A DNA stretch of 18,109 nucleotides from an uncultured Vogesella sp. (lineage in GTDB: Bacteria > Pseudomonadota > Gammaproteobacteria > Burkholderiales > Chromobacteriaceae). Positions 1,062-18,109 of this stretch are shown here, in pieces. The notes below the pieces were generated by a model. It was not told the origin of the DNA, did not search any database, and saw nothing but the letters and a program-made list of their open reading frames with translations. Each line of letters opens with the position of its first letter. The stretch's first letter is position 1. Both the position numbers and the translations under genes were made by a program. The stretch is taken from NCBI GenBank assembly GCA_946479405.1, contig CAMLGD010000048.1:1-18109 (forward strand), given 5' to 3'.

Positions 1062-1073
1062 GGTTGGCCGCAG
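1062..1073 (+). repeat. Dispersed motif GGTTGGCCGCAG, exact copy
   Basis: An exact 12-base copy of the window's dispersed repeat, 25 bp after the cytochrome c stop codon in non-coding DNA. Confidence 0.75.
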
Positions 1074-1094
1074 CGCCAGTGTCGTGCGTAGCGG

Positions 1095-1106
1095 CACCGG
1101 CCGGTG
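1095..1106. other. 12-bp perfect palindrome CACCGGCCGGTG
   Basis: A perfect palindrome in the 177-bp gap between the cytochrome c and response regulator genes. It could be a protein-binding site, but GC-rich palindromes arise easily in this base composition and there is no independent support. Confidence 0.25.
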
Positions 1107-1168
1107 GCAACCCCGGCGCCCTGTTAGCGTGGCTGCGCTGCCGATCCGGCAGGCAGCTTGATCAATCC

Positions 1169-1192
1169 GACAACCGGCAGCAGCCGGTTGTC
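1169..1192 (+). promoter_or_regulatory. 10-bp stem-loop upstream of the response regulator
   Basis: GACAACCGGC and GCCGGTTGTC form a perfect 10-bp inverted repeat around the loop AGCA, ending 21 bp before the start codon of the response regulator. No T-run follows, so it is a poor intrinsic terminator. It may be a 5' leader hairpin or an operator; the role is not known. Confidence 0.45.
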
Positions 1193-1213
1193 CTGTTGTG
1201 CAGGTGAGCGAGC

Positions 1214-1867
1214 ATGGATGCAACGGTGCTGATTGCGGATGACCATCCGCTGTTTCGCGAGGCGATGCGGTTGGTGGTGGCCAGTGCGCTGGGCGAGGGC
1301 TGCGAGATTATCGAATGCGAGTCGCTGGATGAGGCGCTGGGCGCGGTGCGCGCCAATCCGGCCATCGAGCTGGCGATGCTGGACCTGAACATGCCGGGTA
1401 TGGATGGTCTGACCGGGCTGGCACGGCTGCGGCAGCAGGCACCCACGCTGCCGTTGATCGTGGTGTCGGCTGACGAGCGCATCCACACCGTGGAATCGGT
1501 GCTGGCGGTGGGGGTGTCCGGTTTCATTCCCAAATCATTCTCGCGCGAGCTGATGAGCGCGGCGGTGAATGCGGTGCTGGATGGTGAAATCTTTCTGCCG
1601 CCGGCGCTGGCCGACCGCGATACCGGGGTGCCGGCCAGCGATCCGCAGCAGCTGCAGGATCTGGCCAGCCGTCTGGCCCTGTTGACGCGGCAGGAGCGCA
1701 CGGTGCTGGATTACATCGTCAACGGCAAATCCAACAAGGTGGTGGCAATCGAGCTGAATATTGCCGAAAGTACGGTCAAGGCGCATGTGTCCGCCATCCT
1801 GCGCAAGCTCAAGGTGTCCAGCCGCACGCAGGCCGTCATCAAAGTGGGCGCGCTACTGCGGGTGTGA
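1214..1867 (+). CDS. LuxR/NarL-type response regulator (AgmR/ErbR-like)
   Basis: A 217-residue cytoplasmic two-component regulator. The receiver domain (residues 1-120) has the acidic pair Asp9-Asp10 in ADDHP, the phosphoacceptor Asp57 in LDLNMPGMDGL, Ser85 in VVSADE and Lys107 in IPKS. The LuxR-type helix-turn-helix (about residues 155-215) contains LTRQERTVLDYIVNGKSN and the recognition helix region AESTVKAHVSAILRKL. From memory, the start (DDHPLFREA) and the stretch LDLNMPGM.GL.GL resemble the AgmR/ErbR(ExaE) regulators that control PQQ ethanol oxidation in Pseudomonas; this assignment is supported by position, just after the dehydrogenase and cytochrome. No histidine kinase is in the window. 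The start ATG is preceded by a modest GAGCGAG ribosome site. The gene probably has its own leader, given the 177-bp gap and hairpin before it. Confidence 0.88.
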   Translation: MDATVLIADDHPLFREAMRLVVASALGEGCEIIECESLDEALGAVRANPAIELAMLDLNMPGMDGLTGLARLRQQAPTLPLIVVSADERIHTVESVLAVGVSGFIPKSFSRELMSAAVNAVLDGEIFLPPALADRDTGVPASDPQQLQDLASRLALLTRQERTVLDYIVNGKSNKVVAIELNIAESTVKAHVSAILRKLKVSSRTQAVIKVGALLRV

Positions 1868-1908
1868 GGGTGGCGCCGGCACTGGTCATGCCAAAGGCTT
1901 TGGCGTAG

Positions 1909-1920
1909 GGTTGGCCGCAG
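1909..1920 (+). repeat. Dispersed motif GGTTGGCCGCAG, exact copy
   Basis: An exact copy in the gap after the response regulator, extended to GGTTGGCCGCAGGC, the longer consensus shared by six copies. It sits just upstream of a weak terminator-like hairpin. Confidence 0.75.
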
Positions 1921-1927
1921 GCGCCGC

Positions 1928-1949
1928 ACGGCGCATGCCGTTTTTATTA
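1928..1949 (+). terminator. Possible weak intrinsic terminator after the response regulator
   Basis: ACGGC-GCAT-GCCGT forms a 5-bp stem immediately followed by TTTTATTA. The stem is short, and an overlapping alternative (GCGCC-GCAC-GGCGC) competes with it, so strength is doubtful. The position between two gene groups fits a terminator. Confidence 0.4.
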
Positions 1950-1967
1950 CCCTCGCAAGGAGCTTTC

Positions 1968-2564
1968 ATGCGCAAATTGCTGCTTTCCCTGCTGCTGGTC
2001 GGCAGCTTGTCCGGCTGCGGCTACAACAACCTGCAGGCGGGTGACGAAGAGATCAAGGCCAGCTGGTCCGAGGTATTGAACCAGTACCAGCGTCGTGCCG
2101 ATCTGGTGCCCAATCTGGTGAATACCGTCAAGGGTTACGCCACGCATGAACAGACCGTGCTGCAGCAGGTGACCGCCGCGCGGGCGCGGGTGGGCAGTAT
2201 CCAGGCCACGCCGGAACTGGCGGCCAACCCGCAGGCGCTGGCTCAGTTCCAGGCGGCGCAGTCGCAACTGGGCAGTGCGCTGTCACGGCTGCTGGTGGTG
2301 TCGGAGAACTATCCGCAGCTGAAGGCTGACGCCGGTTTCCGCGATCTGCAGGCGCAGCTGGAAGGCACGGAAAACCGCATCACCGTGGCGCGCAACCGCT
2401 ATATCAAGTCGGTGCAGGAGTACAACATCACCGTGCGTAGTTTTCCGTCCAACCTCACCGCCATGGCGTTCGGCTATCAGGTAAAACCCAATTTCAGCGT
2501 GGATAACGAAAAAGCGCTGGCCACTCCGCCGCGGGTGGACTTTTCCGCATCGCCGGCGCAATGA
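1968..2564 (+). CDS. LemA family lipoprotein
   Basis: A 198-residue membrane-anchored protein. Residues 1-17 are a lipoprotein signal ending in the lipobox LSGC (Cys17 lipidated). The remainder is the LemA helical fold: IKASWSEVLNQYQRRADLVPNL near the start, then VKGYATHEQ, and near the end the conserved RNRYIKSVQEYN with the FPSNLTAMAFGY signature. The family is widespread, and its molecular role is not settled. ATG at 1968 is favoured by the AAGGAG ribosome site at 1957-1962 and by the signal peptide; the open frame extends upstream to 1761 but there overlaps the response regulator. Its stop overlaps the ATG of the TPM-domain gene (ATGA), so the two are translationally coupled, a pairing common for LemA and TPM-domain proteins. 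Confidence 0.93.
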   Translation: MRKLLLSLLLVGSLSGCGYNNLQAGDEEIKASWSEVLNQYQRRADLVPNLVNTVKGYATHEQTVLQQVTAARARVGSIQATPELAANPQALAQFQAAQSQLGSALSRLLVVSENYPQLKADAGFRDLQAQLEGTENRITVARNRYIKSVQEYNITVRSFPSNLTAMAFGYQVKPNFSVDNEKALATPPRVDFSASPAQ

Positions 2565-3427
2565 CGGCGCGTTCGCTGTGGCAGCGTGGCCTGCTGCTGT
2601 TGTGGCTGTGTCTGGCCAGCAGCCTGCTACTGGCGCAGGTGGCGGTGCCGGCGTTGAGTGCCCGGGTGGTCGACCAGACGGCTACGCTCGATAGCCAGCA
2701 GTTGGCCGCGCTGGAGCAGAAATTGCAGGCGCTGGAGCAGGCCAAGGGCAGCCAGCTGGCGGTGCTGATCGTGCCCACCACCGGCGAGGAGACCATCGAG
2801 CAGTATTCGTTGCGCGTGGTGGAGCAGTGGCGGCTGGGGCGCAAGAAGGTGGATGACGGCGCGCTGTTGCTGCTGGCCAAAAACGACCGGACTCTGCGCA
2901 TCGAGGTGGGCTACGGGCTGGAAGGCGCACTGAACGATGCCACCAGCAAGCGCATCATCAGCGAGGTGATCGTGCCACATCTGCAAAACGGCGATTTCTA
3001 CGGCGGCATCGATGCCGGGGTGACACGCATCATCGCGGTCATCAACGGCGAACCGCTGCCACCGCCTGCGGCCAACGTGGCTGACAGCAGCGACGAGGTG
3101 TGGACCTTTGTGCCGTTTGCGGTGGTGTTTGCCACCATTTTGGGCGGCGCGTTGCGGCAGATGCTGGGCCGCTGGCTGGGTGCCGCCGGCAGTGCCGCGG
3201 CGGTGGGCACGATGCTGTGGTACCAGCTGGGCTGGGTATGGCCGGCGGGGCTGGTGGCGGCCGGGGTATTTTTGCTGACCTTGCTGTTGCGGCCGGGCCG
3301 TGGCGGTGGTGGTGGTTTTGGTGGTGGCCGCGGCGGTGGCTTTGGCGGCGGGCGCGGCGGTGGCGGTGGCGGCTTTGGCGGCGGTGGTGGTGGTTTCGGC
3401 GGCGGTGGCGCATCCGGGCGTTGGTAA
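2561..3427 (+). CDS. TPM-domain membrane protein (YgcG family) with Gly-rich tail
   Basis: A 288-residue protein. Residues 1-26 are a signal peptide. Residues about 36-160 form the TPM domain (RVVDQTATLD, then LAVLIVPTT, RLGRKKVDDGALLLLAKNDR, EVGYGLEGALND), which faces the periplasm. Two hydrophobic spans follow (about 180-198 and 212-243). The last 40 residues are almost only Gly with Phe, Arg and Ser (from about 247), typical of YgcG-like proteins. TPM domains have been linked to phosphatase activity in plant thylakoids and to membrane protein turnover or respiration elsewhere; the role of this one is unknown. It overlaps lemA by 4 bp. The Gly tail is encoded by a GGY/GGC run (about 3299-3416), a low-complexity stretch that could vary in length. 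One dispersed-motif copy lies inside the gene at 3066-3077, where it encodes PAAN. Confidence 0.9.
   Translation: MTARSLWQRGLLLLWLCLASSLLLAQVAVPALSARVVDQTATLDSQQLAALEQKLQALEQAKGSQLAVLIVPTTGEETIEQYSLRVVEQWRLGRKKVDDGALLLLAKNDRTLRIEVGYGLEGALNDATSKRIISEVIVPHLQNGDFYGGIDAGVTRIIAVINGEPLPPPAANVADSSDEVWTFVPFAVVFATILGGALRQMLGRWLGAAGSAAAVGTMLWYQLGWVWPAGLVAAGVFLLTLLLRPGRGGGGGFGGGRGGGFGGGRGGGGGGFGGGGGGFGGGGASGRW
3066..3077 (-). repeat. Dispersed motif CGTTGGCCGCAG within the TPM gene
   Basis: A reverse-strand copy with one difference at its first base, in the linker between the TPM domain and the first following membrane span. Confidence 0.6.
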
Positions 3428-3439
3428 GGTTGGCCGCAG
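3428..3439 (+). repeat. Dispersed motif GGTTGGCCGCAG, exact copy abutting a stop codon
   Basis: An exact 12-base copy beginning at the first base after the TAA of the TPM gene. Confidence 0.75.
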
Positions 3440-3443
3440 CGAC

Positions 3444-3471
3444 TTGCCAGCTGGCAGCCAGGCGCTACACT
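3444..3471 (+). promoter_or_regulatory. Putative sigma70 promoter of the DUF1289 gene
   Basis: TTGCCA (3444-3449) and TACACT (3466-3471) are separated by 16 bp and lie 33 bp before the DUF1289 start codon. The -35 region overlaps a perfect 12-bp palindrome, TGCCAGCTGGCA (3445-3456), which could be an operator or chance. Confidence 0.45.
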
Positions 3472-3504
3472 GCGGCGCTGGATGCCGAATCGAACAGGAA
3501 AGAC

Positions 3505-3912: not shown

Positions 3913-3999
3913 GCAAATCTTTGCTGGCCACGTGCAGTGTGGGTGCCAAGCGGCGCTGCGATGGTCAGCAGATCTATAGAGCAGGAGTGGACGGACAAG

Positions 4000-4599: not shown

Positions 4600-4609
4600 T
4601 CACTATCAA
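4596..4609. promoter_or_regulatory. Perfect FNR/ANR-type box upstream of the chemoreceptor
   Basis: TTGAT-CACT-ATCAA matches the TTGAT-N4-ATCAA consensus of FNR/ANR/CRP-family oxygen regulators at all ten defined positions. It overlaps the methyltransferase stop codon and stands 109 bp before the chemoreceptor start. A -10 element cannot be fixed: TGAATT (4632-4637) has the ideal class II distance but a poor sequence, and TATAGA (4638-4643) has a better sequence but lies 6 bp further away. Confidence 0.7.
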
Positions 4610-4718: not shown

Positions 4719-6527
4719 ATGGACTGGTTCTGGAAGACCTATGACTTGATCGAGAAGACCTTCTGGAATTCTCTGACCAAAAAACTGTGCGCTTTTTTCT
4801 TTATCAGCCTGTTCCAGCTGATCCTCATCGGCTATGTCTATCTGGCGCTGAGCGATATCCGCGAACTGGTGAGCAGCCAGACCATCAACAGTGCCAGCCT
4901 GGCGCAGATTCATGCGCTACTGGACCGCACCATCTACTGGTCGTTTGCCATCTGGGCCGTATCGCTGCTGTTTATCGCCTTCATGGTGTGGTACCTGCGC
5001 TACCTGATTGTGCGGCCGATGCAGATGATCATCGACATCTTCCGCGAGATTGGCGCCGGCGAGGGCGATCTGTCGCGCGAGATCCCCACCATCACCCATG
5101 ATGAAATCCGCGATCTGTCGCTGTCGTATAACGAGTTCCTGCACAAGATGCGCGAGATCATCAGCAATGTGCGCACCATGACCATGCGCATTGCCATGGA
5201 TTCGGCCCGTACCCGCAAGACCATTCACGAGTCGGTGGAAAGCGCCGGCCAGCAGGCCGCGCTGGCCAGCCAGGTCAGCGTGTCCAGCGAGCGCTCCAGC
5301 AGCGGCGTGACGCAGGTATCGGCCGATACTCAGCAGATTTCCGAAACCACGCTCAACAACCTGGAAATCGCCCGCGCGTCGTATGCCGAACTACAGGATG
5401 CGGCCAACAAGATCGGCAGCGTCAGCGAGCGGGTAGGGCAGTTCAACCTGACCGTGGACGAGCTGTCCACGCGCTCGGCCAGCATCAAGGCAATTGTCGA
5501 CCTGATCAAGGAAGTGTCGGAGCAGACCAACCTGCTGGCGCTGAATGCGGCGATTGAAGCCGCGCGTGCCGGTGAGGCGGGCCGCGGTTTTGCCGTGGTG
5601 GCAGACGAGGTGCGCAAGCTGGCGGAGCGGGTGAAGGTGGCTACCGATGAGATCTCCGGCAATATCGACGGCATGCTGGGACTGGTGAAGAACACAAAGG
5701 ACGAGACCAATCTGATTACTTCCGACACGCATCAGGCGCGCGAAGTGGTAAACCGCTCCTCGCAGCACTTTGGCCGCATGATGGGCGACTTCGAAAGCAC
5801 GGCGCACAGCATGACGCAGATCGCCGGCACCATGAACGATTTTGCCAGCACCAATCGCCAGATTACCGCCAACGTGTCGGAGATCCACGCGTTGAGCAAT
5901 ACCGTGGCCGACAGCCTGAAACAGTCGGAAGATGTCTCGGTGGCGCTGTCGCGCGCGGCGGAAGAGGTGCAGGAGCTGGTGGCGCGCTTCATCCTGGGCG
6001 AGGGCGTGCTGGATGAGTCCATCGCTATCGCCAAGCAGGCGCGCGAACAGTTACAGAAGACCCTGCAGCAGGCGGCACAGGAAGGCTGCGATGTGTTCGA
6101 TCAGCGTTACCAGCTGATTGCCGGCACCAACCCGCCGAAGTACCACACCAATTACGATGTGAAGCTGGAGAAGTCGCTGCAACAGATTTACGACCGTGTG
6201 GTGCAGCAGGTAAGCGGCGGCCGCTTCTGCCTGATGGTGGACAACAACGGCTATGCGCCGACTCACAACAGTTTCTATTCCAAACCTCTGACCGGCGATG
6301 CCGCTACCGATCTGGTGGGCAGCCGCGACAAGCGCCTGTTCAATGATCCGACCGGTATCAAGTCGGCGCGCAGCCAGCAGCCGTTCTTGCTGCAGACCTA
6401 TATGCGCGATACCGGGGAAATCCTGTCGGAAATCGCCTTGCCGATCAGCATGAACAACCGCCATTGGGGGGCGATCCGTGTCGGTTTCGACCCGATGGTG
6501 ATGCTGGAGGCCGGTAGCAAGAAGTAA
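4719..6527 (+). CDS. Methyl-accepting chemotaxis protein with C-terminal sensor domain
   Basis: A 602-residue chemoreceptor. Membrane spans lie at about residues 23-44 and 72-97, with only about 28 periplasmic residues between them, too few for a classical ligand domain. A HAMP domain follows (98-150), then the methyl-accepting coiled coil (about 155-425) with the CheA/CheW-binding hairpin tip [20 protein letters not shown] (265-284) and [18 protein letters not shown] after it. Residues about 455-597 form an extra domain ([58 protein letters not shown]), a PAS/Cache-like sensor unit seen C-terminally in some receptors and signalling enzymes. Sensing is therefore probably cytoplasmic. No CheR-tethering pentapeptide is at the C-terminus. 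ATG 4719 is preferred over GTG 4713 because GAGGAG (4704-4709) is 9 nt from it. The FNR-type box upstream suggests induction at low oxygen. Confidence 0.93.
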
Positions 6528-6528
6528 A

Positions 6529-6540
6529 CGTTGGCCGCGA
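6529..6540 (+). repeat. Dispersed motif, degenerate copy CGTTGGCCGCGA
   Basis: A partial match (TTGGCCGC core intact) one base after the chemoreceptor stop codon and just before the shared terminator. Confidence 0.5.
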
Positions 6541-6550
6541 CGTCAGGCGT

Positions 6551-7164: not shown

Positions 7165-7165
7165 G

Positions 7166-7374: not shown

Positions 7375-7386
7375 GGTTGGCCGCAT
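7375..7386 (+). repeat. Dispersed motif GGTTGGCCGCAT next to the efp terminator
   Basis: A copy with only its last base different from the consensus, lying between the riboswitch and the efp terminator in non-coding DNA. Confidence 0.65.
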
Positions 7387-7435: not shown

Positions 7436-7999
7436 TTAGGCGCGTTTCTTGAATTCGTTGGTACGGGTGTCGATTTCGATCAGGTTGCCGATTTCAACGA
7501 AGGCCGGAACCGGGATTTCCAGGGTGGTGCCCTTGATGCGTGCCGGTTTCAGAACCTTGCCGGAGGTGTCGCCACGTACGGCCGGCTCGGTGTATTCCAC
7601 TTCGCGAACCACGGTGGTCGGCAGCTCAACGGAGATGGCCTTGCCGTTGTAGAAGGTCACTTCGCACTTGTCTTCCATGCCGTCGATGATGAACGGCACG
7701 ACTTCTTCCATGTTCTCGGCTTCAACTTCGTACTGGTTGAACTCGGTGTCCATGAACACGTACATCGGGTCGGCGAAGTAGGAGTAGGTGCACTCGCGCT
7801 TTTCCAGTACCACAACGTCGAACTTGTCGTCAGCGCGGTATACGGCTTCGGAAGCCGAACCGGTCAACAGGTTCTTCATTTTCATTTTTACAACGGAGGA
7901 GTTGCGGCCGGATTTGGAGAATTCGGCTTTCTGCACCACCATCGGGTCGCTGCCTACCATGAATACGTTACCAGCGCGGAGTTCCTGAGCGGTTTTCAT
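7436..7999 (-). CDS. efp: Elongation factor P
   Basis: A 187-residue translation factor that binds between the ribosomal P and E sites and rescues stalling at polyproline. It has the three beta-barrel domains and usual length of [16 protein letters not shown] at the start, the exposed loop [13 protein letters not shown], and a C-terminal ending ..[22 protein letters not shown]. The residue at the loop tip is Arg32 rather than the lysine of EpmA-modified EF-P, matching the form modified by arginine rhamnosylation. The modifying enzyme EarP is encoded immediately upstream on the same strand. The start ATG at 7999 has AGGA about 10 nt upstream. The 56-bp gap to earP has no terminator, so joint transcription is likely, though efp may also have its own promoter. 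A strong terminator follows. Confidence 0.97.
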
Positions 8000-8055: not shown

Positions 8056-9207
8056 CTATTGTAGCTGCTTTTCGGCAAATTGCACCAGATTCGTCGCCAG
8101 GTCGCCGCGAGCCAGCAACGTCTGTGGCCACGCCAGCGCATGCGCCTGCCATGCCTGCAGTATCGTCAGCAGCCGCGGCCAGGCGTCCGGGGCCAGCGCA
8201 TCGCGGTTCCAGCCCAGGTTGAAGTCGCGGATCGTGGCGGCCAGTTCCGGTGCCAGTCCGGCAAGATAGCGTTGCAGGAAGGCTGCCAGTTTTTCCATGT
8301 GCGCGTCCTCGTCCTGGCGGTAGATATGCCAGGCAAACGGCCGACCGGCCCACTGCGCACGCACGAAGCTGTCTTCGCCGCGCACGATGTTCAGGTCGCA
8401 GCTCCACAGCAGGCGGTCGTAGCCGTCCTGGTCGCTCATCGGTAGCACGTAAATGCTCAGCGCGCCGTGCTGGTAGGCATCGCCGGCGTGGCCGGGCTGG
8501 CTGATACCGATGCCGGCCAGCACGTCCGGCAGCACGCGGCCCTGTGGTACCAGTAACTGCACCGGCGTGCTGCCTGCGGCCAACGTTGCACTCCACTGCG
8601 CCGCCGCCGGGGTGTCATAGGCAAACAGGCTGATGCGCATGCCGCCGGGTGGGCAGGGCGGCACGCCACGAGCCTGCCAGTAGCTATCCTGTGCGGCGCG
8701 ATCCGCCTGCCAGGCATCGCGCGCGGCCAACAGCCCGCTTTCGCACAGCAGGCCGCCGCTGTCGGCGTCAAAACCGGGAAAGAAAAAATATTTGGTCAGC
8801 GGCAGGCGCGGATGCGGCGAGGCCATGCGGTGGCAGCCGGCCACCCAGTCCTCGGCCGATAAGTATTCCAGGTTCAGCCACACCGGCTTGCGTGCGCGCA
8901 CTGCCATCGCCTGCTGGTAGGCCTCCGGCAGCTCGCAGGCGAAGGCCTCAATCACCACGTCGGCCACTGCGAAATCCACCGTGAACGGTTTGCCCCAGTG
9001 GCGCACGTGGATATCGCCCAGCGGCTGCTCGGGCAGGGTGACATCCAGCGCTGGTGCGATGCGCGCGAAGCTGGCGAGATCGTCCACCCACAGCGTTACC
9101 GCGGCGCCATGCTCGGCCGCCAGTTGGCGCGCCAGGCGCCAGGTCACGCCGATGTCGCCGAAGTTGTCGATCACGGTGCAGAAAATATCCCAGCGCAGGC
9201 GCGGCAT
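8056..9207 (-). CDS. earP: EF-P arginine rhamnosyltransferase EarP
   Basis: A 383-residue cytoplasmic inverting glycosyltransferase that transfers rhamnose from dTDP-rhamnose to Arg32 of EF-P. The N-terminal DIFCTVIDNFGDIGVTWRLA contains the two aspartates of the catalytic region (Asp14 and Asp18). The C-terminal nucleotide-sugar site is RGEDSFVRAQWAGRPF (276-291) with Glu278, followed by WHIYRQDEDAHMEKL. Length fits the family. ATG at 9207 is preceded by AAGGAG at good spacing. Its substrate gene efp lies 56 bp downstream, and the matching Arg32 confirms a complete modification pair; the dTDP-rhamnose genes are not in the window. The reverse-strand sequence at 8574-8585 is a dispersed-motif copy that encodes TLAAG. 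Confidence 0.96.
   Translation of the reverse strand: MPRLRWDIFCTVIDNFGDIGVTWRLARQLAAEHGAAVTLWVDDLASFARIAPALDVTLPEQPLGDIHVRHWGKPFTVDFAVADVVIEAFACELPEAYQQAMAVRARKPVWLNLEYLSAEDWVAGCHRMASPHPRLPLTKYFFFPGFDADSGGLLCESGLLAARDAWQADRAAQDSYWQARGVPPCPPGGMRISLFAYDTPAAAQWSATLAAGSTPVQLLVPQGRVLPDVLAGIGISQPGHAGDAYQHGALSIYVLPMSDQDGYDRLLWSCDLNIVRGEDSFVRAQWAGRPFAWHIYRQDEDAHMEKLAAFLQRYLAGLAPELAATIRDFNLGWNRDALAPDAWPRLLTILQAWQAHALAWPQTLLARGDLATNLVQFAEKQLQ
8574..8585 (-). repeat. Dispersed motif CGTTGGCCGCAG within earP
   Basis: A copy differing from the consensus at the first base only. With its flanks it reads ACGTTGGCCGCAGGC, the same 15 bases as the copy in nrdJ at 17536-17550, although the genes are unrelated. 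Confidence 0.6.
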
Positions 9208-9276: not shown

Positions 9277-9963
9277 TCAGCGGCAGGCTGTGCCCGGATA
9301 ACCCGGCAGCTGGCTGGCGGCGGCACTGCAGGCCAGTTGTTGTGCCTGTTTGAGCTGCTGCTTCAGGCTGCCGCGATCGATGCTGGCCCAGTGCAGCTGC
9401 TGCCCCAGCCAGCTGGCCCAGGCAAACTCGACAAAATAGACCTCGTCCTGTTTGGCGACATAACCCTTGTCCTGCAACAGGCCGGCCAGCGAGCGGTAGG
9501 GGTAGTCCGGCAGTGCAGCCAGGGTCGCAGGCAGTTTGCTTGCCGCCAACGGACGGCCCTGCTCGTCGCGCAGCCAGCTCCAGTGCCGTGCCGCCATGTC
9601 GTGCCAGAAGGTATCCGGCTGTGTCAGCCGGCCGATTACCTGCACGCTGGCGGTAGCCACGCCGAGGCGCAGTAGCGCACTGGCAAAGTGGTGACGATCC
9701 ACCAGGTACAGTGTGCCGCCGGGGCCGATCACTACCGGAATAGCCTTCTTGCGGATCTTGGCCGCCAGCTTGTCGGCGGATAGCTCGCGCAGCTCGTTGG
9801 CCTCGTCCTCCACCTGCAGCAGGCCAATGCCGGGTTGGGTGGGGTGCAATGCGGCCAACGGTGTGTCGCACCACTGCCCGATCGGGGTATCCATTTGGCA
9901 GGGGGCGGCGCTGGCGAAGGTGGCACCCAGTAGCAGTGGCAGGGTAAGCAGCAAGTGGCGCAT
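9277..9963 (-). CDS. Exported ParB-like protein (ParBc_2/PF08857-like)
   Basis: A 228-residue protein with a clear signal peptide (residues 1-19, ending ASA-AP), so it is periplasmic or secreted. The mature part resembles the ParB-like putative nuclease family PF08857: LAALHPTQPGIGLLQV (37-51), IPVVIGPGGTLYLVDRHHFASAL (75-97) with the conserved His-His at 91-92, then FWHDMAARHWSWLRDEQG and LPDYPYRSLAGLL, and FVEFAWASWLG. The family assignment is from memory of its motif order. A function in DNA partitioning is unlikely for an exported protein; the activity is not established. Cys22 and Cys32 could form a disulfide. It lies 69 bp upstream of earP on the same strand with no clear terminator between, so it may share a transcript, but a link to EF-P modification is not evident. 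Its ribosome site is weak. Confidence 0.75.
   Translation of the reverse strand: MRHLLLTLPLLLGATFASAAPCQMDTPIGQWCDTPLAALHPTQPGIGLLQVEDEANELRELSADKLAAKIRKKAIPVVIGPGGTLYLVDRHHFASALLRLGVATASVQVIGRLTQPDTFWHDMAARHWSWLRDEQGRPLAASKLPATLAALPDYPYRSLAGLLQDKGYVAKQDEVYFVEFAWASWLGQQLHWASIDRGSLKQQLKQAQQLACSAAASQLPGYPGTACR
9849..9860 (-). repeat. Dispersed motif CGTTGGCCGCAT within the ParB-like gene
   Basis: A copy with the full GTTGGCCGCA core, encoding PLAAL shortly after the signal peptide. Confidence 0.5.
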
Positions 9964-10073: not shown

Positions 10074-11411
10074 TTACACGTGCAGCAGCAGGAAGCGACG
10101 CTCCCACGGGCTGATCACGTCGAAGTACTCGCGGTACTCGACTTCCTTGATGGCGCTGTAGGTGCGGATGAAATGCTCGCCAAAAATGTCGGCCAGCGGC
10201 TTGCACTTGAGCAGCATGTCGATGGCGTCGTCCAGATGGCGCGGCAGCTGGTGCGGCTGCTCGTAGGCGCTGCCGGTCAGTGGCTCGGCCGGCTGGATGC
10301 GCTGCTGCATGCCCAGGTAGCCGCAGGCCAGGCTGGCGGCCATCGCCAGATACGGGTTGACGTCCACGCCGGCCAGACGGTTTTCCACCCGGCGCGCTTC
10401 GGGGCCGGAATGCGGCACGCGCAGGCCGCAGGTACGGTTGTCGTAGCCCCAGCTCAGGTTGATCGGCGCCGAGGTAAAGCGGCTTAGGCGGCGGTAGCTG
10501 TTCACGTATGGCGCAAAGAACGGCATCGCCGCCGGCAGGTAGGTCTGCAGGCCGCCGATGAAGTGGAAGAAGGCATCGGACGGGCTGCCGTCGGCGTTGC
10601 TGAAGATGTTGTTGCCGTCGGCGTCCACCACGCTCTGGTGGATGTGCATTGCGCTGCCCGGCTGGCCCTGCATCGGCTTGGCCATGAAGGTGGCGTACAT
10701 ATTGTTGCGGATCGCCACCTCGCGCACGGTGCGCTTGAACAGGAACACTTGGTCGGCCAGCGCCAGCGGGTCGCCGTGATCCAGGTTGATCTCCATCTGT
10801 GCGGTGCCCATCTCGTGGATCAGCGTATCCAGGTGCAGGCCCTGCGCCTCGCACCAGTCGTAGATCTCGTCGAAGATGTTGTCGTATTCGTTTACCGCGT
10901 CGATGCTGAAACTCTGCATCCCGGCTTCGGTGCGCTTGGTGCGGCCAACCGGCGGGCGCAGTGGGATGTCTTCGTCGGGTTCTACCTCTACCAGGTAGAA
11001 CTCCATTTCCGGTGCCACGATGGCGGACAGGCCTTCCTGCTCGTACAGCTTGAGGATGCGCTTGAGCACGTTGCGGGGCGCGAGGTCGGCATCGCTGCCA
11101 TCAAAATTGACGCAGTCGTGGATGATCTGGGCGGTCGGTTCCTTGGCCCACGGTACCGGGCGGATGGTGCTGGCGTCGGGAATCAGCCGCATGTCCGGGT
11201 CGGCGACGGAGGTGAAGTCCTGCTCGGGGAAGTCGCCGGTCACGGTCATGCTGAGCACGGCTTCCGGCAGGCGCAGGCCCTCGGCCGGATTGTATTTGTG
11301 GCGCGGCACGATCTTGCCGCGCGCCAGTCCGGTCATGTCCGGAATCAGGCATTCCACTTCGGTGATGTGATTGTCGTCCAGCCATTGCTGGATTTGCTGG
11401 GCATTGGTCAT
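10074..11411 (-). CDS. Glutamine synthetase family, gamma-glutamylpolyamine synthetase-like
   Basis: A 445-residue cytoplasmic ligase of the GlnA superfamily. Metal and glutamate site residues are visible: Glu135 and Glu137 in APEMEFYL, Glu200 and Glu207 in HEMGTAQMEINL, and His256 and His258 in GSAMHIHQS. The end SPWERRFLLLHV and the start QQIQQWLDDNHITEVECLIPDMTGLARGK resemble the PuuA/SpuI/PauA enzymes that ligate glutamate to putrescine or other polyamines, rather than the main ammonia-assimilating enzyme, which is longer (about 470 residues) and carries a tyrosine adenylylation motif not found here. Substrate is inferred. No other polyamine genes are in the window. ATG 11411 has only a weak GAG upstream; a small ORF ending 12 bp earlier may provide translational coupling. 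A strong terminator follows. Confidence 0.88.
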   Translation of the reverse strand: MTNAQQIQQWLDDNHITEVECLIPDMTGLARGKIVPRHKYNPAEGLRLPEAVLSMTVTGDFPEQDFTSVADPDMRLIPDASTIRPVPWAKEPTAQIIHDCVNFDGSDADLAPRNVLKRILKLYEQEGLSAIVAPEMEFYLVEVEPDEDIPLRPPVGRTKRTEAGMQSFSIDAVNEYDNIFDEIYDWCEAQGLHLDTLIHEMGTAQMEINLDHGDPLALADQVFLFKRTVREVAIRNNMYATFMAKPMQGQPGSAMHIHQSVVDADGNNIFSNADGSPSDAFFHFIGGLQTYLPAAMPFFAPYVNSYRRLSRFTSAPINLSWGYDNRTCGLRVPHSGPEARRVENRLAGVDVNPYLAMAASLACGYLGMQQRIQPAEPLTGSAYEQPHQLPRHLDDAIDMLLKCKPLADIFGEHFIRTYSAIKEVEYREYFDVISPWERRFLLLHV

Positions 11412-11775: not shown

Positions 11776-14700
11776 ATGAATGAAACCAATCCACCAGAAA
11801 CCGCGGTTGCCCGCCCTTCAATCGCCCGCCGCTGGGGGCGCCGCCTGGCCTGGAGTACCGCTGCGCTGGCGGCGCTGCTGGCCGGCCTGTGGGCCGGGGT
11901 GCCCAAAGCGGTGGATTACGCCGCGGGCAACTGGGCCAAAGACATCGGCCGCAGCCTGACGCTGGGCAAGGTGGAGTTTGCGCCGTGGGCGCTGCGCCTC
12001 ACCCTGCACGACGTCGTGCTGCGCGACCGCGACGGCAGCCAGCTGTTTAGCGCCGCGCGGCTGAACGTGGATGCCGAAGGGCTGCCGCTGTTGATCGGCC
12101 GCATCCAGCTTGCCGACATCTCGCTGGATACGCCGCAGCTGTGGGCCAAGCGCGATGCACAGGGGGAATGGAACTGGAGCCGCCTTGTGCACGATGCCAG
12201 CGGCCAGCCCAAGCCGCAGCAGTCGCCGTCCGATCCGCCCAAACTGCTGATTCGCCAACTGGCGCTGAACAAGGGTCAGGCGCATGTGCAGGATGCGCTG
12301 GGCGGCGATGTGCAATACCAGGTGCTGCCGCTGGACCTCCACCTGCAGAACCTGTCGACGCTGCCGGACAACCACGGTCGCTACCAATTGGCCGCAGAGC
12401 TGGACGATGGCACCCGGCTGGCGTGGCAGGGCAGCCTGCTGCTGCAGCCGCTGCAGTCCGACGGTGTGCTGAAAGTGGAAGGCTTCACCCTGGCCAGCAT
12501 CTGGCCCTATGTACAGCCGCACCTCAAGTTGGCCGCACCGCAGGGCAAGCTGGCGGCTACCGTGCCTTACCATTTTGACCTGGCTGGTGTCTCGGCCAGT
12601 GCCTGGTCGCGCGGTTTCAGTGCCCGGCTGGATGGCCTGGCACTGGTGGCGCCGCAGAGCGGCAGCCCGCTCAAGCTGGCCAGCCTGGCGCTGGCCGGCG
12701 GGCAGTTCGATCTGGTCAACCGCCAGCTGACGCTGGGCAGCCTGACCCTGTCCGGCGGCGAGCTGGCCACGGTGCTGGATGCGCACGCGCAGCCGGACTG
12801 GTTGGCCGCCATCCCCGTGGCCCAGCCCGGCGCGGCGGCAGCCAAGCCTGCGGCCAACCATGCCGCCGCGCCGGGCTGGCGTGTCAACCTGCCGCGCATC
12901 CGGCTGGAAAACTGGCAGTTGCGCGCCACGCATCAGGGCTTTATCGCGCCGCTGTCCGCCAGCCTCAAGCTGGACAGCCTGCAAGCCGCCGTCGCCGTCG
13001 ATGCCAACGGCGGGGTAAAGGTACAAGATGCCACGCTGGCGCTGTCGCAGTTGACTGCTGCCAGCGGTAGCCAGCCGGCATTTGCCAGCCTGGCCGGCGT
13101 GCAACTGGCCGGCAGCGAACTGGACCTGAACAAGCACAGCATTCGTGCGGGCGACATCACGCTGCAGGGGCTGCAACTGGCGCTGAACCGCAGCAAGGAC
13201 GGTAAGCTGGATATTGCCGAAGCACTGCGTCAGCGCCCCTCCGCCACGGCCGCGCCGGCCGCCGCAAGTGAGCCGCCGGCAGCAGCGGCCTGGCAGATTC
13301 GCTACCCTGAGTTGAAGCTGGCGGGCGGCAGCGTCAGCTGGCGCGACAGCAGCACTACCACGCCGGTGGCACTGCAGCTGGCCGATGTGGCGGCCAGCGT
13401 GTCTGGTGATCCGCAGCAGGGCTGGGCGCTGCAGCTGGGCGGCGGCGTTGGCCAGGGCAAGCTGCAGCTGGATGCCACGCTTGCGGCCAACCTGCAGGAC
13501 ATCAAGGGCCAGTTGCAGGCCAGCCGTTTGCCGCTGGCCGGCGTGGCGCCGTATGCGCTGGAGCAGACCGTGCTGCGCTTTGGCGGTGGCGAGCTATCGG
13601 CCGATCTGGGCTTTGCGCTGACCGGCAGCCGTTGGCAGGCCGATGGCAAGGCACAACTGGATAAACTGGCGCTGTTCGAGCCGGGGCGGCGCGAGCCGCT
13701 GCTGGGCTGGCAGCAGCTGGCCGTCAGCGGTATCAAGGCACAGCCGCAGCGGGTGAGCATTGCCGATGTGCGGCTGGTGTCGCCGCAGCTGCGCTTTATC
13801 CTGGACGAAAAGCGGGTACCCAACTTTGCGCACCTGATGAAGCCGCAGCCAGTCGCGGCCAAGTCGGTGGCCAGCGCCAAACCGGCGGCGGCTGCCGCAC
13901 CGGTAGTGGATGTGCGTGCCATCCGCGTGCGCAATGCGCGCATGGACTTTGCCGACCTGGGGCTGCAGCCCAGCTTCGGTACCCGCATCCACTCGCTGTC
14001 CGGCACCGTGCTGGGCCTGTCCAGCAAGCCGGGCCGCCGCGGCACGGTGACGCTGGATGGCCGCGTCGACCAGTTTGGCGACGTGCGCATCCGCGGTGCG
14101 CTGTCGCCATTCGAGGTGACGCGCGACCTGGACATGACGCTTAACTTCCGCAACATTACGCTGGGCAGCCTCAACCCGTACTCGATGACCTTTGCCGGCT
14201 GGCAGATCACTGACGGCCGCCTTACCACCGAGCTGCGTTACCTGCTGAAAGACCGCCAGCTCAAGGGTGACAACCGCGTGGTGATCGACCACATCCAGCT
14301 GGGTGACGAGGTGGCCAATTACGACGGCACGCGCCTGCCGCTGCGCCTGGCGGTGGCGCTGCTGGAAGACAGCGACGGCCGCATCGATCTGGCACTGCCG
14401 GTGGCCGGCAGCCTGGATCAGCCGGACTTCTCCTACGGCCATCTGGTGTGGCAGGCGATCCGCAACATCCTGGTGAAAGTGGTGACCGCACCGTTCCGCG
14501 CGCTGTTCGGCGGCGAGGGCTTCGACGAGATCTATGCCGATGCCGGCGACGACCGCATTCCACCGCCGGAACGCGAGAAACTGGGCAAGCTGGCCGAGCT
14601 GATGGCCAAGCGGCCCAAGCTGGCGCTGGCCATCGGCGGCGGTTATGCCGCCGAGGAAGACAGCCGCGAGCTGGCGCGTTACCGCGTCGACAGCGACATC

Positions 14701-15066
14701 CTCAAGCGCGCCGCCTACCAGCTGCAGGCCGACGAGCCGCTGCCGCTGCCGGACATGGGCGACCCGGCGATCCGCAAGGCAGTGGGCGATGTCTACGCCG
14801 CGCAGATCGGCCGCTTTGCCTGGCTGAAACGGGTGGCCAGCGAGAAAGACACCGCCGAGCGGGCACAGGCGATGCGCCAGGAGTTGCTGGCGGCGCAGAA
14901 GGTGGATCAGGCGGCGTTGAACGCGCTGGCCAAGGCGCGCGGCGAGGCGGCGCGGCAGTTGCTGCTGGCGGCGCAACCGGCGCTGGCAGACCGCATCAGC
15001 GTGCTGGACCCAGACAAGGTGAAGGCCGACAAGGATGGCGTACCGCTGCTGATCAAGCTGAAATAA
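11776..15066 (+). CDS. AsmA-like DUF748 protein
   Basis: A 1096-residue envelope protein. A basic start (RRWGRRLAW) leads into one membrane span at about residues 24-42, leaving the rest in the periplasm. Next come AsmA-type beta strands (GKVEFAPWALRLTLHDVVL, ADISLDTPQLW). The middle holds repeated beta segments with Ala/Pro-rich linkers. The C-terminal third carries the DUF748 core: FADLGLQPSFGTRIHSLSGTV, then the glycine stretch LSSKPGRRGTVTLDG, VTRDLDMTLNFRNI, GRLTTELRYLL, HLVWQAIRN and PFRALFGGEGF. AsmA-superfamily members are now viewed as bridge-like proteins moving phospholipids across the periplasm; that role is an inference here. ATG 11776 is preferred over the upstream TTG 11713 because AGGA lies about 10 nt before it and it gives the typical N-terminus. 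At least seven copies of the TTGGCCGC core lie inside the gene. It ends at a hairpin built from two motif copies. Confidence 0.9.
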   Translation: MNETNPPETAVARPSIARRWGRRLAWSTAALAALLAGLWAGVPKAVDYAAGNWAKDIGRSLTLGKVEFAPWALRLTLHDVVLRDRDGSQLFSAARLNVDAEGLPLLIGRIQLADISLDTPQLWAKRDAQGEWNWSRLVHDASGQPKPQQSPSDPPKLLIRQLALNKGQAHVQDALGGDVQYQVLPLDLHLQNLSTLPDNHGRYQLAAELDDGTRLAWQGSLLLQPLQSDGVLKVEGFTLASIWPYVQPHLKLAAPQGKLAATVPYHFDLAGVSASAWSRGFSARLDGLALVAPQSGSPLKLASLALAGGQFDLVNRQLTLGSLTLSGGELATVLDAHAQPDWLAAIPVAQPGAAAAKPAANHAAAPGWRVNLPRIRLENWQLRATHQGFIAPLSASLKLDSLQAAVAVDANGGVKVQDATLALSQLTAASGSQPAFASLAGVQLAGSELDLNKHSIRAGDITLQGLQLALNRSKDGKLDIAEALRQRPSATAAPAAASEPPAAAAWQIRYPELKLAGGSVSWRDSSTTTPVALQLADVAASVSGDPQQGWALQLGGGVGQGKLQLDATLAANLQDIKGQLQASRLPLAGVAPYALEQTVLRFGGGELSADLGFALTGSRWQADGKAQLDKLALFEPGRREPLLGWQQLAVSGIKAQPQRVSIADVRLVSPQLRFILDEKRVPNFAHLMKPQPVAAKSVASAKPAAAAAPVVDVRAIRVRNARMDFADLGLQPSFGTRIHSLSGTVLGLSSKPGRRGTVTLDGRVDQFGDVRIRGALSPFEVTRDLDMTLNFRNITLGSLNPYSMTFAGWQITDGRLTTELRYLLKDRQLKGDNRVVIDHIQLGDEVANYDGTRLPLRLAVALLEDSDGRIDLALPVAGSLDQPDFSYGHLVWQAIRNILVKVVTAPFRALFGGEGFDEIYADAGDDRIPPPEREKLGKLAELMAKRPKLALAIGGGYAAEEDSRELARYRVDSDILKRAAYQLQADEPLPLPDMGDPAIRKAVGDVYAAQIGRFAWLKRVASEKDTAERAQAMRQELLAAQKVDQAALNALAKARGEAARQLLLAAQPALADRISVLDPDKVKADKDGVPLLIKLK
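12848..12859 (-). repeat. Dispersed motif GGTTGGCCGCAG within the DUF748 gene
   Basis: An exact reverse-strand copy in an Ala/Pro linker (encodes PAAN), 46 bp after another core copy at 12802-12809 in the opposite orientation. Confidence 0.65.
13481..13492 (-). repeat. Dispersed motif GGTTGGCCGCAA within the DUF748 gene
   Basis: A copy with the last base changed, encoding LAAN. Confidence 0.45.
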
Positions 15067-15091
15067 ATCGGCGCCAACTGGTGTGTACCGT

Positions 15092-15133
15092 ACTGCGGCC
15101 AACCTTGCGACAAGGTTGGCCGCAGTTGTTTTG
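15092..15133 (+). terminator. Terminator made of two inverted dispersed motifs
   Basis: ACTGCGGCCAACCTTG (15092-15107) and its exact reverse complement (15111-15126) make a perfect 16-bp stem with loop CGA, followed by TGTTTTGG. It lies 25 bp after the DUF748 stop. Each arm holds an exact 12-base copy of the dispersed motif (15093-15104 and 15114-15125). Confidence 0.8.
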
Positions 15134-15201
15134 GCGGTGCGTAGCGGGCTGTTGTATCGGCACGGCACCCGCGGGCAACTCGGCTGGCCACTGGTACAGC
15201 T

Positions 15202-15215
15202 TTGATGGCTATCAA
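15202..15215. promoter_or_regulatory. Perfect FNR/ANR-type box upstream of nrdJ
   Basis: TTGAT-GGCT-ATCAA matches the FNR/ANR consensus fully. Its centre (15208.5) lies 41.5 bp before the start site expected from the TTAGAT -10 element, the standard class II activator position. Confidence 0.72.
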
Positions 15216-15224
15216 GGTCAATAC

Positions 15225-15240
15225 CCGCTATATCTAGTTA
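15225..15240. promoter_or_regulatory. NrdR-like box 1
   Basis: The core CTATATCTAG (15228-15237) matches the NrdR box core C-W-A-T-A-T-A-T-W-G at 9 of 10 positions if W is A or T; flanks match poorly. It overlaps the inferred -10 element, a repressing position. Confidence 0.5.
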
Positions 15241-15243
15241 GAT
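15238..15243 (+). promoter_or_regulatory. Inferred -10 element of the nrdJ promoter
   Basis: TTAGAT (4 of 6 to TATAAT) is called mainly because its distance from the FNR box is exactly that of a class II FNR promoter. No good -35 is present, as expected for such promoters. The start site would be near 15250, giving a leader of about 30 nt. Confidence 0.45.
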
Positions 15244-15256
15244 TCCATTTTTTCTG

Positions 15257-15272
15257 ACACCACATATAGCGG
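15257..15272. promoter_or_regulatory. NrdR-like box 2
   Basis: ACACCACATATAGCGG resembles the 16-bp NrdR box, with an ACAC start and ATATAG centre. Its core lies 32 bp (three helical turns) from the core of box 1, the spacing usual for paired NrdR sites. Parts of both boxes also make a 10-bp inverted repeat (15224-15233 with 15264-15273) that would cover the ribosome site. Confidence 0.52.
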
Positions 15273-15279
15273 GGATGGC

Positions 15280-18109
15280 ATGAATCGGGACAACGGCGCC
15301 GTGTTTGCGGAACAGGATATTTCGCGCGAAGTACTGCTGGAAAAATACGCCAAGAACGGCGAACAGTCGGTAACCGAAGTGCGTCAGCGCGTGGCGCAGG
15401 CGCTGGCCGCGCAGGAGCAGGACCCGCAACGCTTTGCTCCGTTGTTTTTCGAGGCGCTGGATGGCGGCTTCATCCCCGGCGGCCGCATCAACTCCGCCGC
15501 CGGCACCGACCTCAAGGCCACGCTGATCAACTGCTTCGTGCAGCCGGTGGGCGATGCCGTGTCCGAGGCCGAGAACGGCAAGGTCGGCATCTACGAAGCG
15601 CTGCTGCAGTCGGCCGAGACCATGCGCCGTGGCGGCGGTGTGGGCTACAACTTCAGCCGCATCCGCCCCAAGGGCGCGCGGGTGAAGGGCACCAACAGCC
15701 GTGCCTCGGGGCCGGTATCCTACATGCGCGTGTTCGACCGCAGCTGCGAAACGGTGGAATCCGCCGGCGCACGTCGCGGCGCGCAGATGGGGGTGCTGGA
15801 TGTGAGCCATCCGGACATCGAGGCCTTCATCCACGCCAAGGATCAGGGTGATCTGGCCAACTTCAATATCTCGGTGGGCGTGTCCGATGCCTTCATGCAG
15901 GCGGTGGATAGCGATGGCGACTGGGAGTTGACCCACGCCGTGGCGCCGGCGTCCGACGCCTTCCCCGACAGCTACCAGCGCGACGACGGGCTATGGGTGT
16001 ACCGCAAGCTGCGTGCCCGCGAGCTGTGGCAGCAGATCATGCACTGCACCTATGACCACGCCGAGCCGGGCGTGCTGTTCATGAGCAAGATCAACGCCGA
16101 CAACAACCTGTCCTACTGCGAGGTGATCGAGTCCACCAACCCTTGCGGCGAGCAGCCGCTGCCGGACTACGGCTGCTGCGACCTGGGCTCCATCAACCTG
16201 TGCAAGTTTGTGCGCCAGCCGTTTGGCGAGGCACCAAGCTTCGATTTCAAGGCATTCGAGAAGGTGGTGCGCACCTCGATCCGCATGCTGGACAACGTGC
16301 TGGATCTCACCGTGTGGCCGCTGCAGGAACAGCAGCGCGAGGCGCAGAACAAACGCCGCGTCGGCCTGGGCTTCACCGGCCTCGGCGATGCGCTGATCAT
16401 GCTCAAGGTGCGTTACGACAGTGAGGAAGGCCGCAGGTTGGCCGCAAGCATCTCCGAGCATATGCGCGATGCCGCCTACGATGCCTCGGTGGATCTGGCC
16501 ATCGAGAAGGGCGCCTTCCCGCTGTTCGATGCCGACAAGTACCTGGCGGCGCCGCACTGCGCCAGCCGCCTGCCGGACAAGATCAAGGCGCGCATCAAAA
16601 AGCACGGCATCCGCAACTCGCACCTGCTGTCCATCGCGCCGACTGGCACCATTTCGCTGGCGTTTGCCGACAATGCCTCCAACGGCATCGAGCCGCCGTT
16701 CAGCTGGTACTACACCCGCAAGAAGCGCATGGCCGACGGCACGCAGCAGGAATACCTGGTGGAAGACCACGCCTACCGCGTGTATCGCATGCAGGGCGGC
16801 GACACCAATGCGCTGCCGGAATACTTTGTCAGTGCGTTGCAGATGAGCGCGCTGGACCACATGCGCATGGTGGCGGCGGTGGCACCGTACGTGGATACCG
16901 CCATCTCCAAGACCGTGAACGTGCCGGCCGACTACCCGTTTGCCGACTTCGAAAGCCTGTACCTGGAAGCCTGGCGCGCCGGACTGAAGGGCATCACCAC
17001 CTACCGCCCCAACAGCGTGCTGGGCTCGGTGCTGTCGATTGAGCCGACGCCTGCGGCCAACCCTGCGCCCAGCCAGCAGCTGCCGCAGGACCTGGGCAAC
17101 CAGAATGATCCGGACCGCCGCATCACGCTGAACACTGCGCCCAGCCCGGCGCTGGCCAGCCTGAAATGGCCGCACCGGCCCAAGCTCAAGCATGGCAACC
17201 CGTCGTGGACCTTCATGGTGGAAGGCGAGGAGGGCGACTTTGCGGTGATGGTCGGCCATATCGAAGGCCAGCAGCCGGGCGAAGCGCCGCTGCCGTTTGA
17301 ATGCTGGGTCAACGGCGATGTGCCGCGCGGTCTGGGGGCGATTGCCAAGACGCTGTCCATGGACATGCGCTGCCGCGACCGTGCCTGGCTGGGGGCCAAG
17401 CTGGATGCGCTGGCCGCCACCCGCGGTGATCGTCATTACCGTGCCGAGCTGGGCGATGGTCCGGTGGGCAGCAGCGCCGCCGCCGCCGCGCTGGGCCGGG
17501 TGGTGAAATACCGCGTCGAGCAGCTGGGGGCGCTAACGTTGGCCGCAGGCGACACCACCCCGGTGATGGATGCGCTGTTTGCGCGCAAGGAGCCGAAATC
17601 CGGCACCGACGGCACCATCAGCTGGTCGGTGGACGTGAACAACCCGCAGACCGGCGACGACTTTGTGCTGTTCGTGAAGGAACTGGTGCTGCCCAACGGC
17701 CAGCGCCGGCCGTACTCGCTGTGGCTGGCCGGCCATTACCCGCGCGAGCTGGACGGGCTGTGCAAGATGCTCAGCCTCGACATGCGGGTGATCGATCCGG
17801 CATGGATCGGCATGAAGCTGCGCAAGCTGCTGAGCTACGCCGAACCGCAGGCCGACTTCTTCGCCCGCACCCCAGGCAGCGACAAGTCGCAGAGCTGGCC
17901 GTCCACCGAAGCGTACCTGGCGCGGCTGGTGATTCACCGCTACGCCATGCTGGGCATCCTCAGCGAGGAAGGCGTGCCAGTGGAGGAAATGGGGGTGATG
18001 GTGCCGGAACAGGGCGACCTGTTCGAAAGCGCAGTGGTGAGCGTGGCGCCGGCACAGATGGCCGGCAAGGCCTGCCCGGAATGCGGCAACCGCGCGCTGA
18101 TCAAGAAGG
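15280..18109 (+). CDS. nrdJ: Adenosylcobalamin-dependent (class II) ribonucleotide reductase, 3' end missing
   Basis: 943 codons are present and the frame is open to the window edge. The enzyme reduces ribonucleotides to deoxyribonucleotides using a thiyl radical made from vitamin B12 coenzyme, needing neither oxygen nor a second subunit. Visible features: NCFVQPVGD with redox Cys85; [36 protein letters not shown] with Asn287, thiyl Cys289, Glu291 and redox partner Cys300; and APTGTISL followed by NGIEPPF for phosphate binding. A Pro/Ala/Gln-rich linker at about residues 588-606 joins the barrel to a second region ending in the start of a zinc ribbon, [12 protein letters not shown], whose remainder is off-window. 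ATG 15280 follows GGGGA by 4 nt; an ATG at 15274 stops at once. Control by FNR and NrdR is indicated upstream. Three dispersed-motif copies lie within the gene. Confidence 0.95.
16436..16447 (+). repeat. Dispersed motif GGTTGGCCGCAA within nrdJ
   Basis: A copy with the last base changed, encoding RLAAS. Confidence 0.5.
17051..17062 (-). repeat. Dispersed motif GGTTGGCCGCAG within the nrdJ linker
   Basis: An exact reverse-strand copy, extended to GCCTGCGGCCAACC, encoding PAANP in the low-constraint linker between the two enzyme regions. Confidence 0.65.
17537..17548 (+). repeat. Dispersed motif CGTTGGCCGCAG within nrdJ
   Basis: A copy with the first base changed, encoding TLAAG. The Leu codon is TTG, in a gene that mostly uses CTG. 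Confidence 0.6.

Follow-up and report, generated by a model that had tools for sequence, protein, structure and literature searches.

A dispersed DNA motif resembling an uptake sequence in Vogesella, with sister dialects in related Chromobacteriaceae

The motif and the genes of the window

The 18,109-nucleotide stretch of contig CAMLGD010000048.1 (assembly GCA_946479405.1) from an uncultured Vogesella sp., called the window here at its full length, carries within its genes and in the gaps between them a short dispersed motif that had been put forward as a candidate DNA uptake sequence (DUS). The 10-mer core of this motif, GTTGGCCGCA, occurs 17 times on the two strands; its split into 8 forward and 9 reverse copies, the 10 copies of the 11-mer GTTGGCCGCAG (5 on each strand) and the 7 copies of the 12-mer GGTTGGCCGCAG (4 forward, 3 reverse) reproduce the counts of the original prediction, whereas its 27 copies of the 8-mer TTGGCCGC become 28 (16 forward, 12 reverse) on recounting. 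The copies are placed as follows.

1063..1072, forward: core motif, intergenic, 26 bp past the stop of the cytochrome c gene 716-1036
1910..1919, forward: core motif, intergenic, 42 bp past the stop of the response-regulator gene 1214-1867
3067..3076, reverse: core motif, coding, in the TPM-domain gene 2561-3427
3429..3438, forward: core motif, intergenic, 1 bp past the stop ending at 3427
5399..5408, reverse: core motif, coding, in the chemoreceptor gene 4719-6527
6531..6538, forward: degenerate copy, 8-mer TTGGCCGC only, directly past the stop ending at 6527
7376..7385, forward: core motif, intergenic, lying 50 bp past the 3' end of gene 7436-7999, a minus-strand gene that we take to be EF-P-like
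8575..8584, reverse: core motif, coding, in gene 8056-9207, presumably EarP-like
9850..9859, reverse: core motif, coding, in the ParBc_2 gene 9277-9963
10940..10949, reverse: core motif, coding, in the glutamine synthetase-like gene 10074-11411
12528..12537, forward: core motif, coding, in the DUF748/AsmA gene 11776-15066
12849..12858, reverse: core motif, coding, in the same DUF748/AsmA gene
13482..13491, reverse: core motif, coding, in the same DUF748/AsmA gene
15094..15103, reverse: core motif, intergenic, left arm of an inverted pair
15115..15124, forward: core motif, intergenic, right arm of the inverted pair
15092..15126, forward: terminator-like hairpin formed by the inverted pair, 27 bp past the stop of 11776-15066
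16437..16446, forward: core motif, coding, in the ribonucleotide reductase gene 15280-18108, which is cut by the window end
17052..17061, reverse: core motif, coding, in the same ribonucleotide reductase gene
17538..17547, forward: core motif, coding, in the same ribonucleotide reductase gene

Our own gene calls place 6 of the 17 core copies between genes and 11 within them; since these calls come from a simple codon-usage finder, intergenic fractions are approximate throughout. The copies that had been noted after stop codons, at 1062, 1909, 3428 and 7375, are indeed found there, whereas the degenerate one consists of the 8-mer only and starts at 6531.

In a codon-aware control, in which synonymous codons were shuffled within each gene and intergenic DNA was redrawn from its own base-to-base frequencies (300 rounds), the motif is lost: the 28 copies of TTGGCCGC compare with a shuffle mean of 4.7 (maximum 11), the 17 of GTTGGCCGCA with 0.26 (maximum 3), the 10 of GTTGGCCGCAG with 0.06 (maximum 1) and the 7 of GGTTGGCCGCAG with 0.03 (maximum 1). 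The codon-aware expectation thus lies far below the count, which bears out the earlier argument against simple codon bias, and with these shuffles codon bias, peptide bias and base composition are all rejected as causes.

The inverted pair at 15094 and 15115, which had gone unmentioned, forms the best predicted terminator of the window, with a 16-bp stem, a 3-nt loop and a T-rich tail. The 61-nt fold is computed at -40.4 kcal/mol (z -6.9), and its stem is the longest among the 19 terminator-like sites of the window, in which shuffles average 13.5 such sites.

Distribution and sister dialects in the family

The exact motif is a signature of the genus Vogesella: among 61 genomes of the family, GTTGGCCGCAG is present in 493-890 copies in all 13 genomes of genus g1 and in 0-22 copies in the remaining 48. 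Genus g1 is called Vogesella because of its position in a tree of EarP and EF-P, the names of two of its members (G001, which is Vogesella oryzae Q2602, and G060, very probably Vogesella sp. LIG4) and the NCBI taxonomy, in which Vogesella is placed in the Chromobacteriaceae. In this tree the window stands beside G060 (support 0.58), and both group with G001 (support 1.00). In G001, GTTGGCCGCA reaches 2273 copies against 13 for a reversed control, so the genome-wide abundance that the original prediction asked about is real and the enrichment is not confined to the locus of the window.

Related genera are marked by sister dialects, GTTGGCCGAA in Pseudogulbenkiania and others and GTTGGCCGAG in Crenobacter. 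When 10-mers in genome loci or stretches were ranked de novo, GTTGGCCGCA came first in 12 of the 13 Vogesella loci and second in G050, behind an overlapping word; GTTGGCCGAA came first in G038 (Neisseriaceae bacterium JH1-16), G046, G039, G047, G049 (Pseudogulbenkiania subflava) and G011; and GTTGGCCGAG came first in G035, identified by an identical protein as Crenobacter cavernae, and second, again behind an overlapping word, in G036. The 20-kb locus of G037 has only 3 copies of GTTGGCCGAA, which is not top-ranked there, and nonetheless this genome holds 378 copies of TTGGCCGAAC, a word that is found 1278 times in G038, 544 in G046, 169 in G039, 159 in G047, 149 in G011 and 136 in G049; the 47 copies in G048 lie inside the range of 6-58 of the remaining genomes. 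GTTGGCCGAG, which was counted inside the family only, has 1940 and 1590 copies in the two genomes of genus g5 and 13-165 elsewhere. Across 399 genomes of the order, GTTGGCCGMA occurs 1265-2307 times in 8 of the 13 sampled genomes of this family, f1 (six Vogesella, G011 and G039), and 31-58 times in the other five, and it is not in excess outside the family, with 0-83 copies in the 386 genomes of other families.

The expected enrichment in related Chromobacteriaceae is therefore found as sister dialects, whereas the exact motif is limited to one genus and Chromobacterium is without it. Neither motif nor dialect is seen in Chromobacterium and in 9 of the 10 genomes of the Aquitalea genus, and de novo 10-mer ranking gave no comparable motif in stretches of motif-negative genomes of genera g2, g3, g4 and g8, in those of Chromobacterium G023 and Aquitalea-genus G003 and G006, or in stretches L035, L019 and L331. 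As a positive control, 20-kb stretches of two family-f44 genomes, one each, yielded overlapping words that spell the classical DUS AGGCCGTCTGAA, whose 10-mer occurs in them 34 and 25 times; the same ranking returned nothing for G289, from another family. Classical DUS dialects had 0-9 copies each in stretches of five of the Chromobacteriaceae genomes.

Several side observations belong to this distribution. G011 (genus g2; L177, L308) is the sole one of the 10 Aquitalea-genus genomes with the GTTGGCCGAA dialect; it branches outside five other Aquitalea in the EarP/EF-P tree, and its ComP-like pilin is very basic (isoelectric point, pI, 9.8). In genus g8 the palindrome GGCCGCGGCC is over-represented in G040 (L188-L190), at 8 places in 60 kb, which give 16 counts over the two strands where 1.7 are expected, and is perhaps a different genome signature. 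Near earP, the Chromobacterium loci L012, L014, L018, L021 and L023 are rich in repeated words, for example CCCCACGCAC or GGGATGAACC, which we take to resemble type I-E arrays of clustered regularly interspaced short palindromic repeats (CRISPR).

Placement in the genome, polarity and foreign DNA

The genomic behaviour of the motif supports a likeness to uptake sequences, with a sharp mismatch spectrum, no polarity, an intergenic excess, depletion around terminase genes and use in a hairpin. A 400-kb sample of G060 contains 290 perfect 10-mers against 0-20 copies of any single one-mismatch form. The flanks in this genome prefer A at -3 and -2, G at -1, and G and C at +12 and +13, with little farther out, and the wider Vogesella consensus is AAGGTTGGCCGCA[A/T]GC. 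Conservation in G060 fades about four bases outside the core, and therefore no longer unit appears to have been copied; with so little conserved flank, a mobile repeat is rejected.

In G060, 101 of 289 sites (35%) are intergenic, compared with 11.8% of bases (p 1e-24), and intergenic enrichment recurs in four other genomes (p 0.007 to 8e-10). Coding copies occupy all six combinations of frame and strand in G060 and four or five in the other genomes, and divergent gaps in G060 hold 7 of 96 sites, a raw count not normalised for gap length. Coding copies do often read LAA, AAN or LAE, as they would if the motif were a by-product of codon or peptide usage; yet this explanation, like that of a dispersed mobile repeat of the repetitive extragenic palindromic (REP) or miniature inverted-repeat transposable element (MITE) type, deserves next to no credence in view of the codon-preserving shuffles, the share of intergenic copies and the six settings of the coding ones.

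Chi and KOPS are strand-polar, HIP1 is a palindrome and matS is local; the motif is, like these, a dense chromosomal oligomer, but unlike them it is non-palindromic, unpolar and spread. Octamers of the Chi or KOPS type are also abundant and biased to the core genome, which would speak for a signal that is polar with respect to replication or recombination. A bias between the strands along the direction of replication is, however, not seen in 20 stretches of one genome, G060, with 72/72 copies in 10 stretches of negative GC skew and 78/68 in 10 of positive skew, just as the even split in the window had led the original prediction to argue, and the motif is longer than Chi or KOPS. A replichore-polar signal is thus rejected on this sample, and we regard such a signal in general as highly improbable.

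Sites in G060 are spaced more evenly than in 500 of 500 random placements (copies within 60 bp merged). This even spacing, together with the very high copy number and the strand symmetry, would also fit a regularly distributed site, bound by a chromosome-organising protein or serving as a HIP1-like target of methylation or restriction, and multiplied for chromosome upkeep. Such a site is nevertheless improbable, since the consensus is non-palindromic, extends over 10-13 bases with graded flanks, switches dialect at positions 9-10 between genera and is used as terminator stems. In Crenobacter, 9 inward motif pairs have 72% of their arms beside T-rich runs. In Vogesella, 14 of 31 inward pairs abut and leave no loop; in the G060 stretches L119-L138, nine inward pairs abut exactly and make up the loopless 20-bp perfect palindrome TGCGGCCAACGTTGGCCGCA, whereas Crenobacter pairs are mostly looped.

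The motif had been expected to be rarer in islands and prophages, and it is indeed depleted around phage terminase genes. Ten strong phrog_2 matches (E 2e-25 or better) in 19 genomes, one of them confirmed by a second scan, were used and weaker ones excluded; the stretches centred on them contain 40 copies in 181 kb, compared with 110 in 200 kb of control stretches. Eight of the ten terminase stretches, one of which is only 4 kb long, carry 0-4 copies, whereas the 10 controls carry 8-13. In L289 (G054) and L290 (G056) the motif is absent for 5 and 8 kb around the terminase within otherwise normally tagged DNA, perhaps because of small phage remnants or domesticated elements. The low-GC stretches L127 (G060, 49%) and L304 (G057, 46%) still hold 13 and 10 copies per 20 kb and would therefore have been either acquired long ago or taken up from relatives that bear the motif.

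Conservation of whole sites was compared with that of average 10-mers in pairs of loci, as raw fractions without a significance test. Between the window and Vogesella loci, sites are kept above the average in 9 of 13 comparisons, the best-covered being G060 (9/14 against 0.31) and G001 (5/12 against 0.34); other pairs of loci gave 13/16 against 0.63, 14/17 against 0.60, 11/11 against 0.57, 12/13 against 0.53 and 12/14 against 0.56.

Candidate receptor and relation to known uptake sequences

The motif is, like a DUS, the most over-represented 10-12-mer, with copy numbers per genome that range from many hundreds into the thousands, and in the wider sense of an uptake sequence it is a symmetric, genome-wide and permissively placed signature accompanied by competence genes. 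The DUS of Neisseriaceae, as described in PMC3630211 and PMC7371117, are 10-12-mers with about 2000 copies per genome on both strands, genus-level dialects, terminator pairs and island depletion; all these traits are shared here, as is a ComP homologue. The Pasteurellaceae have abundant symmetric self tags of their own that are tied to natural transformation, the uptake signal sequences (USS). The motif is like these in the kind of system, but the USS sequence is unrelated, and the motif has no AT-rich flanks. Among the matches listed, open-access papers containing an 11-12-mer form were by title mostly concerned with primers.

ComEC and pilins were the competence genes sought. ComEC is present together with a type IV pilin that is related to ComP by sequence and fold and has Neisseria ComP as its closest solved relatives, so the suggested search for type IV pilus and ComP-like minor pilin genes was successful. 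PF16732 is rejected as a marker of ComP, matching 61 of 61 genomes and in many cases PilE-type pilins; P0130, the G060 pilin, scores 23.8 bits, under the cut-off of 27.3, and P0122 scores 29.8, over it. Past the first 28 mature residues, 12 of 13 Vogesella pilins have 2 cysteines and P0130 has 3, one of them in the long helix; the 11 non-Vogesella ComP-like pilins read have 2-3, with G046 outside the properly read set. In the four Vogesella loci read (G001, G060, G057 and G053), a GspH/FimT-like pilin gene lies just upstream of the ComP-like gene, and its product in G060 is basic (pI 9.8), has 4 cysteines and matches GspH PF12019.

Abundance, sister dialects in relatives, rarity around terminases and the genes for a ComP-like pilin and ComEC together support the uptake-sequence-like reading, and the motif with its core GTTGGCCGCA is very likely the primary DUS of Vogesella and one dialect in a Chromobacteriaceae family with GTTGGCCGAA and GTTGGCCGAG. 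We infer that the tag would be bound at the cell surface by a DNA-binding minor type IV pilin, most likely the ComP-homologous one, that the DNA would be pulled through the outer membrane by the pilus and one strand passed inward by ComEC, and that tag-bearing alleles would be installed by homologous recombination. Repeated preferential uptake would then let tags accumulate wherever the 10-mer is tolerated, i.e. after genes, in linkers and in terminator stems, and leave few in phage DNA.

FimT pilins bind DNA in other bacteria, and the motif might be an uptake sequence that is read not by the ComP homologue but by the neighbouring GspH/FimT-like pilin of Vogesella or by some other pilin. The adjoining genes, the basic four-cysteine protein of G060 and the occurrence of the ComP-like pilin in motif-negative genera would fit such a receptor, which is nonetheless rather unlikely, as both the sequence and the fold of the ComP-like pilin suggest membership of the known family of DUS-receptor pilins.

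A number of points weigh against a DUS read by a ComP homologue. On the side of the pilin, a second structural comparison placed the minor pilin PilV just above one ComP entry; ComP is also the best solved relative of the ComP-like pilin in motif-negative Aquitalea and Chromobacterium, so its presence is not diagnostic of the tag; and 10 of the 25 genomes searched for it had supplied rows of the query alignment. The DD region of ComP is held by two disulfides with 4 cysteines, according to PMC4906244, a pattern that the ComP-like pilin does not have, and pI values are inconsistent (12 Vogesella proteins span 5.6-9.4, and 10 of the 11 read from elsewhere are below 7), with the result that charge is rejected as a marker of tag use. 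On the side of the motif, two terminase stretches, with the terminase in a gap of 5-8 kb, have normal densities (11 and 15 copies); only 5% of the arms of Vogesella inward pairs are near T-rich runs; and spacing is over-even in G060 only, the coefficients of variation in G038 and G046 being below the simulated mean yet within the simulated range. Four distant Vogesella loci keep 0 of 2 window sites each, and the pair G059-G058 keeps 5/11 against 0.45, i.e. without excess. Tags are also sparser here, at 0.44-0.72 per kb or one per 1.4-2.3 kb, than the 400-1100 bp given for Neisseriaceae DUS (PMC7371117). Finally, the CTG at +6 to +8, invariant in eight Neisseriaceae dialects according to PMC3630211, reads CCG here. 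The motif differs from known uptake dialects, as had been remarked from the start, and because the CTG core is not kept it is not filed as a Neisseriaceae DUS dialect, although every genomic indication has it behaving as one.

Other positions suggest common descent of the two kinds of tag. AGGTTGGCCGAA matches AG-mucDUS, AGGTCGTCTGAA, and AG-simDUS at 9 of 12 bases in register, namely the AG before the core, +1 G, +4 G, +6 C, +8 G, +9/+10 AA and one of +2/+3, and a random 12-mer would reach this against eight dialects on both strands with a chance of about 0.005 in register and 0.01 with offsets; for the Vogesella and Crenobacter forms the agreement stops at 8 of 12 (chance 0.03-0.08). The A at +10 of DUS is kept in GTTGGCCGAA and GTTGGCCGCA and lost in Crenobacter GTTGGCCGAG, and the A to C change that Vogesella shows at +9 has its counterpart in the step from kingDUS to king3DUS.

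We tentatively propose, with a confidence somewhat short of even, that ComP-type tag-dependent uptake predates the Neisseriaceae and was present in their common ancestor with the Chromobacteriaceae, with a tag near AGGTTGGCCGAA, a later CTG-to-CCG change of the core, genus-level swaps at +9/+10 and repeated loss (e.g. in Chromobacterium, most of the Aquitalea genus and genus g4), the pilin without the second disulfide being the older form of the receptor; GTTGGCCGAA is perhaps the ancestral dialect. The deep nodes of the EarP/EF-P tree are weak and its outgroup is nested inside, so that a reading as losses of the tag and not as gains is tentative. The hosts described here, unlike those of Neisseriaceae DUS, belong to a group reported without DUS: according to PMC3630211, no obvious DUS occurs in Laribacter, Lutiella, Pseudogulbenkiania or Chromobacterium, no ComP was found by BLAST in C. 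violaceum, and DUS are dated after the split from C. violaceum. Table S1D of that paper, with over-represented 10-mers for Pseudogulbenkiania and others, may already include a form of GTTGGCCGAA. If true, an origin before the Neisseriaceae would overturn the published conclusion that dates DUS to after the Chromobacterium split.

Overall, the sister family of the Neisseriaceae would hold a second, diverged dialect family that has a ComP homologue but not the core regarded as indispensable. No example of bacteria labelling their genome for sexual exchange within their own kind is better known than DUS, and how such tags originate, are lost and switch dialect could be compared directly between sister families. 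The Chromobacteriaceae could thereby offer environmental hosts, natural candidate pairs of receptor and tag for use in binding studies, and a means of recognising foreign islands in their genomes.

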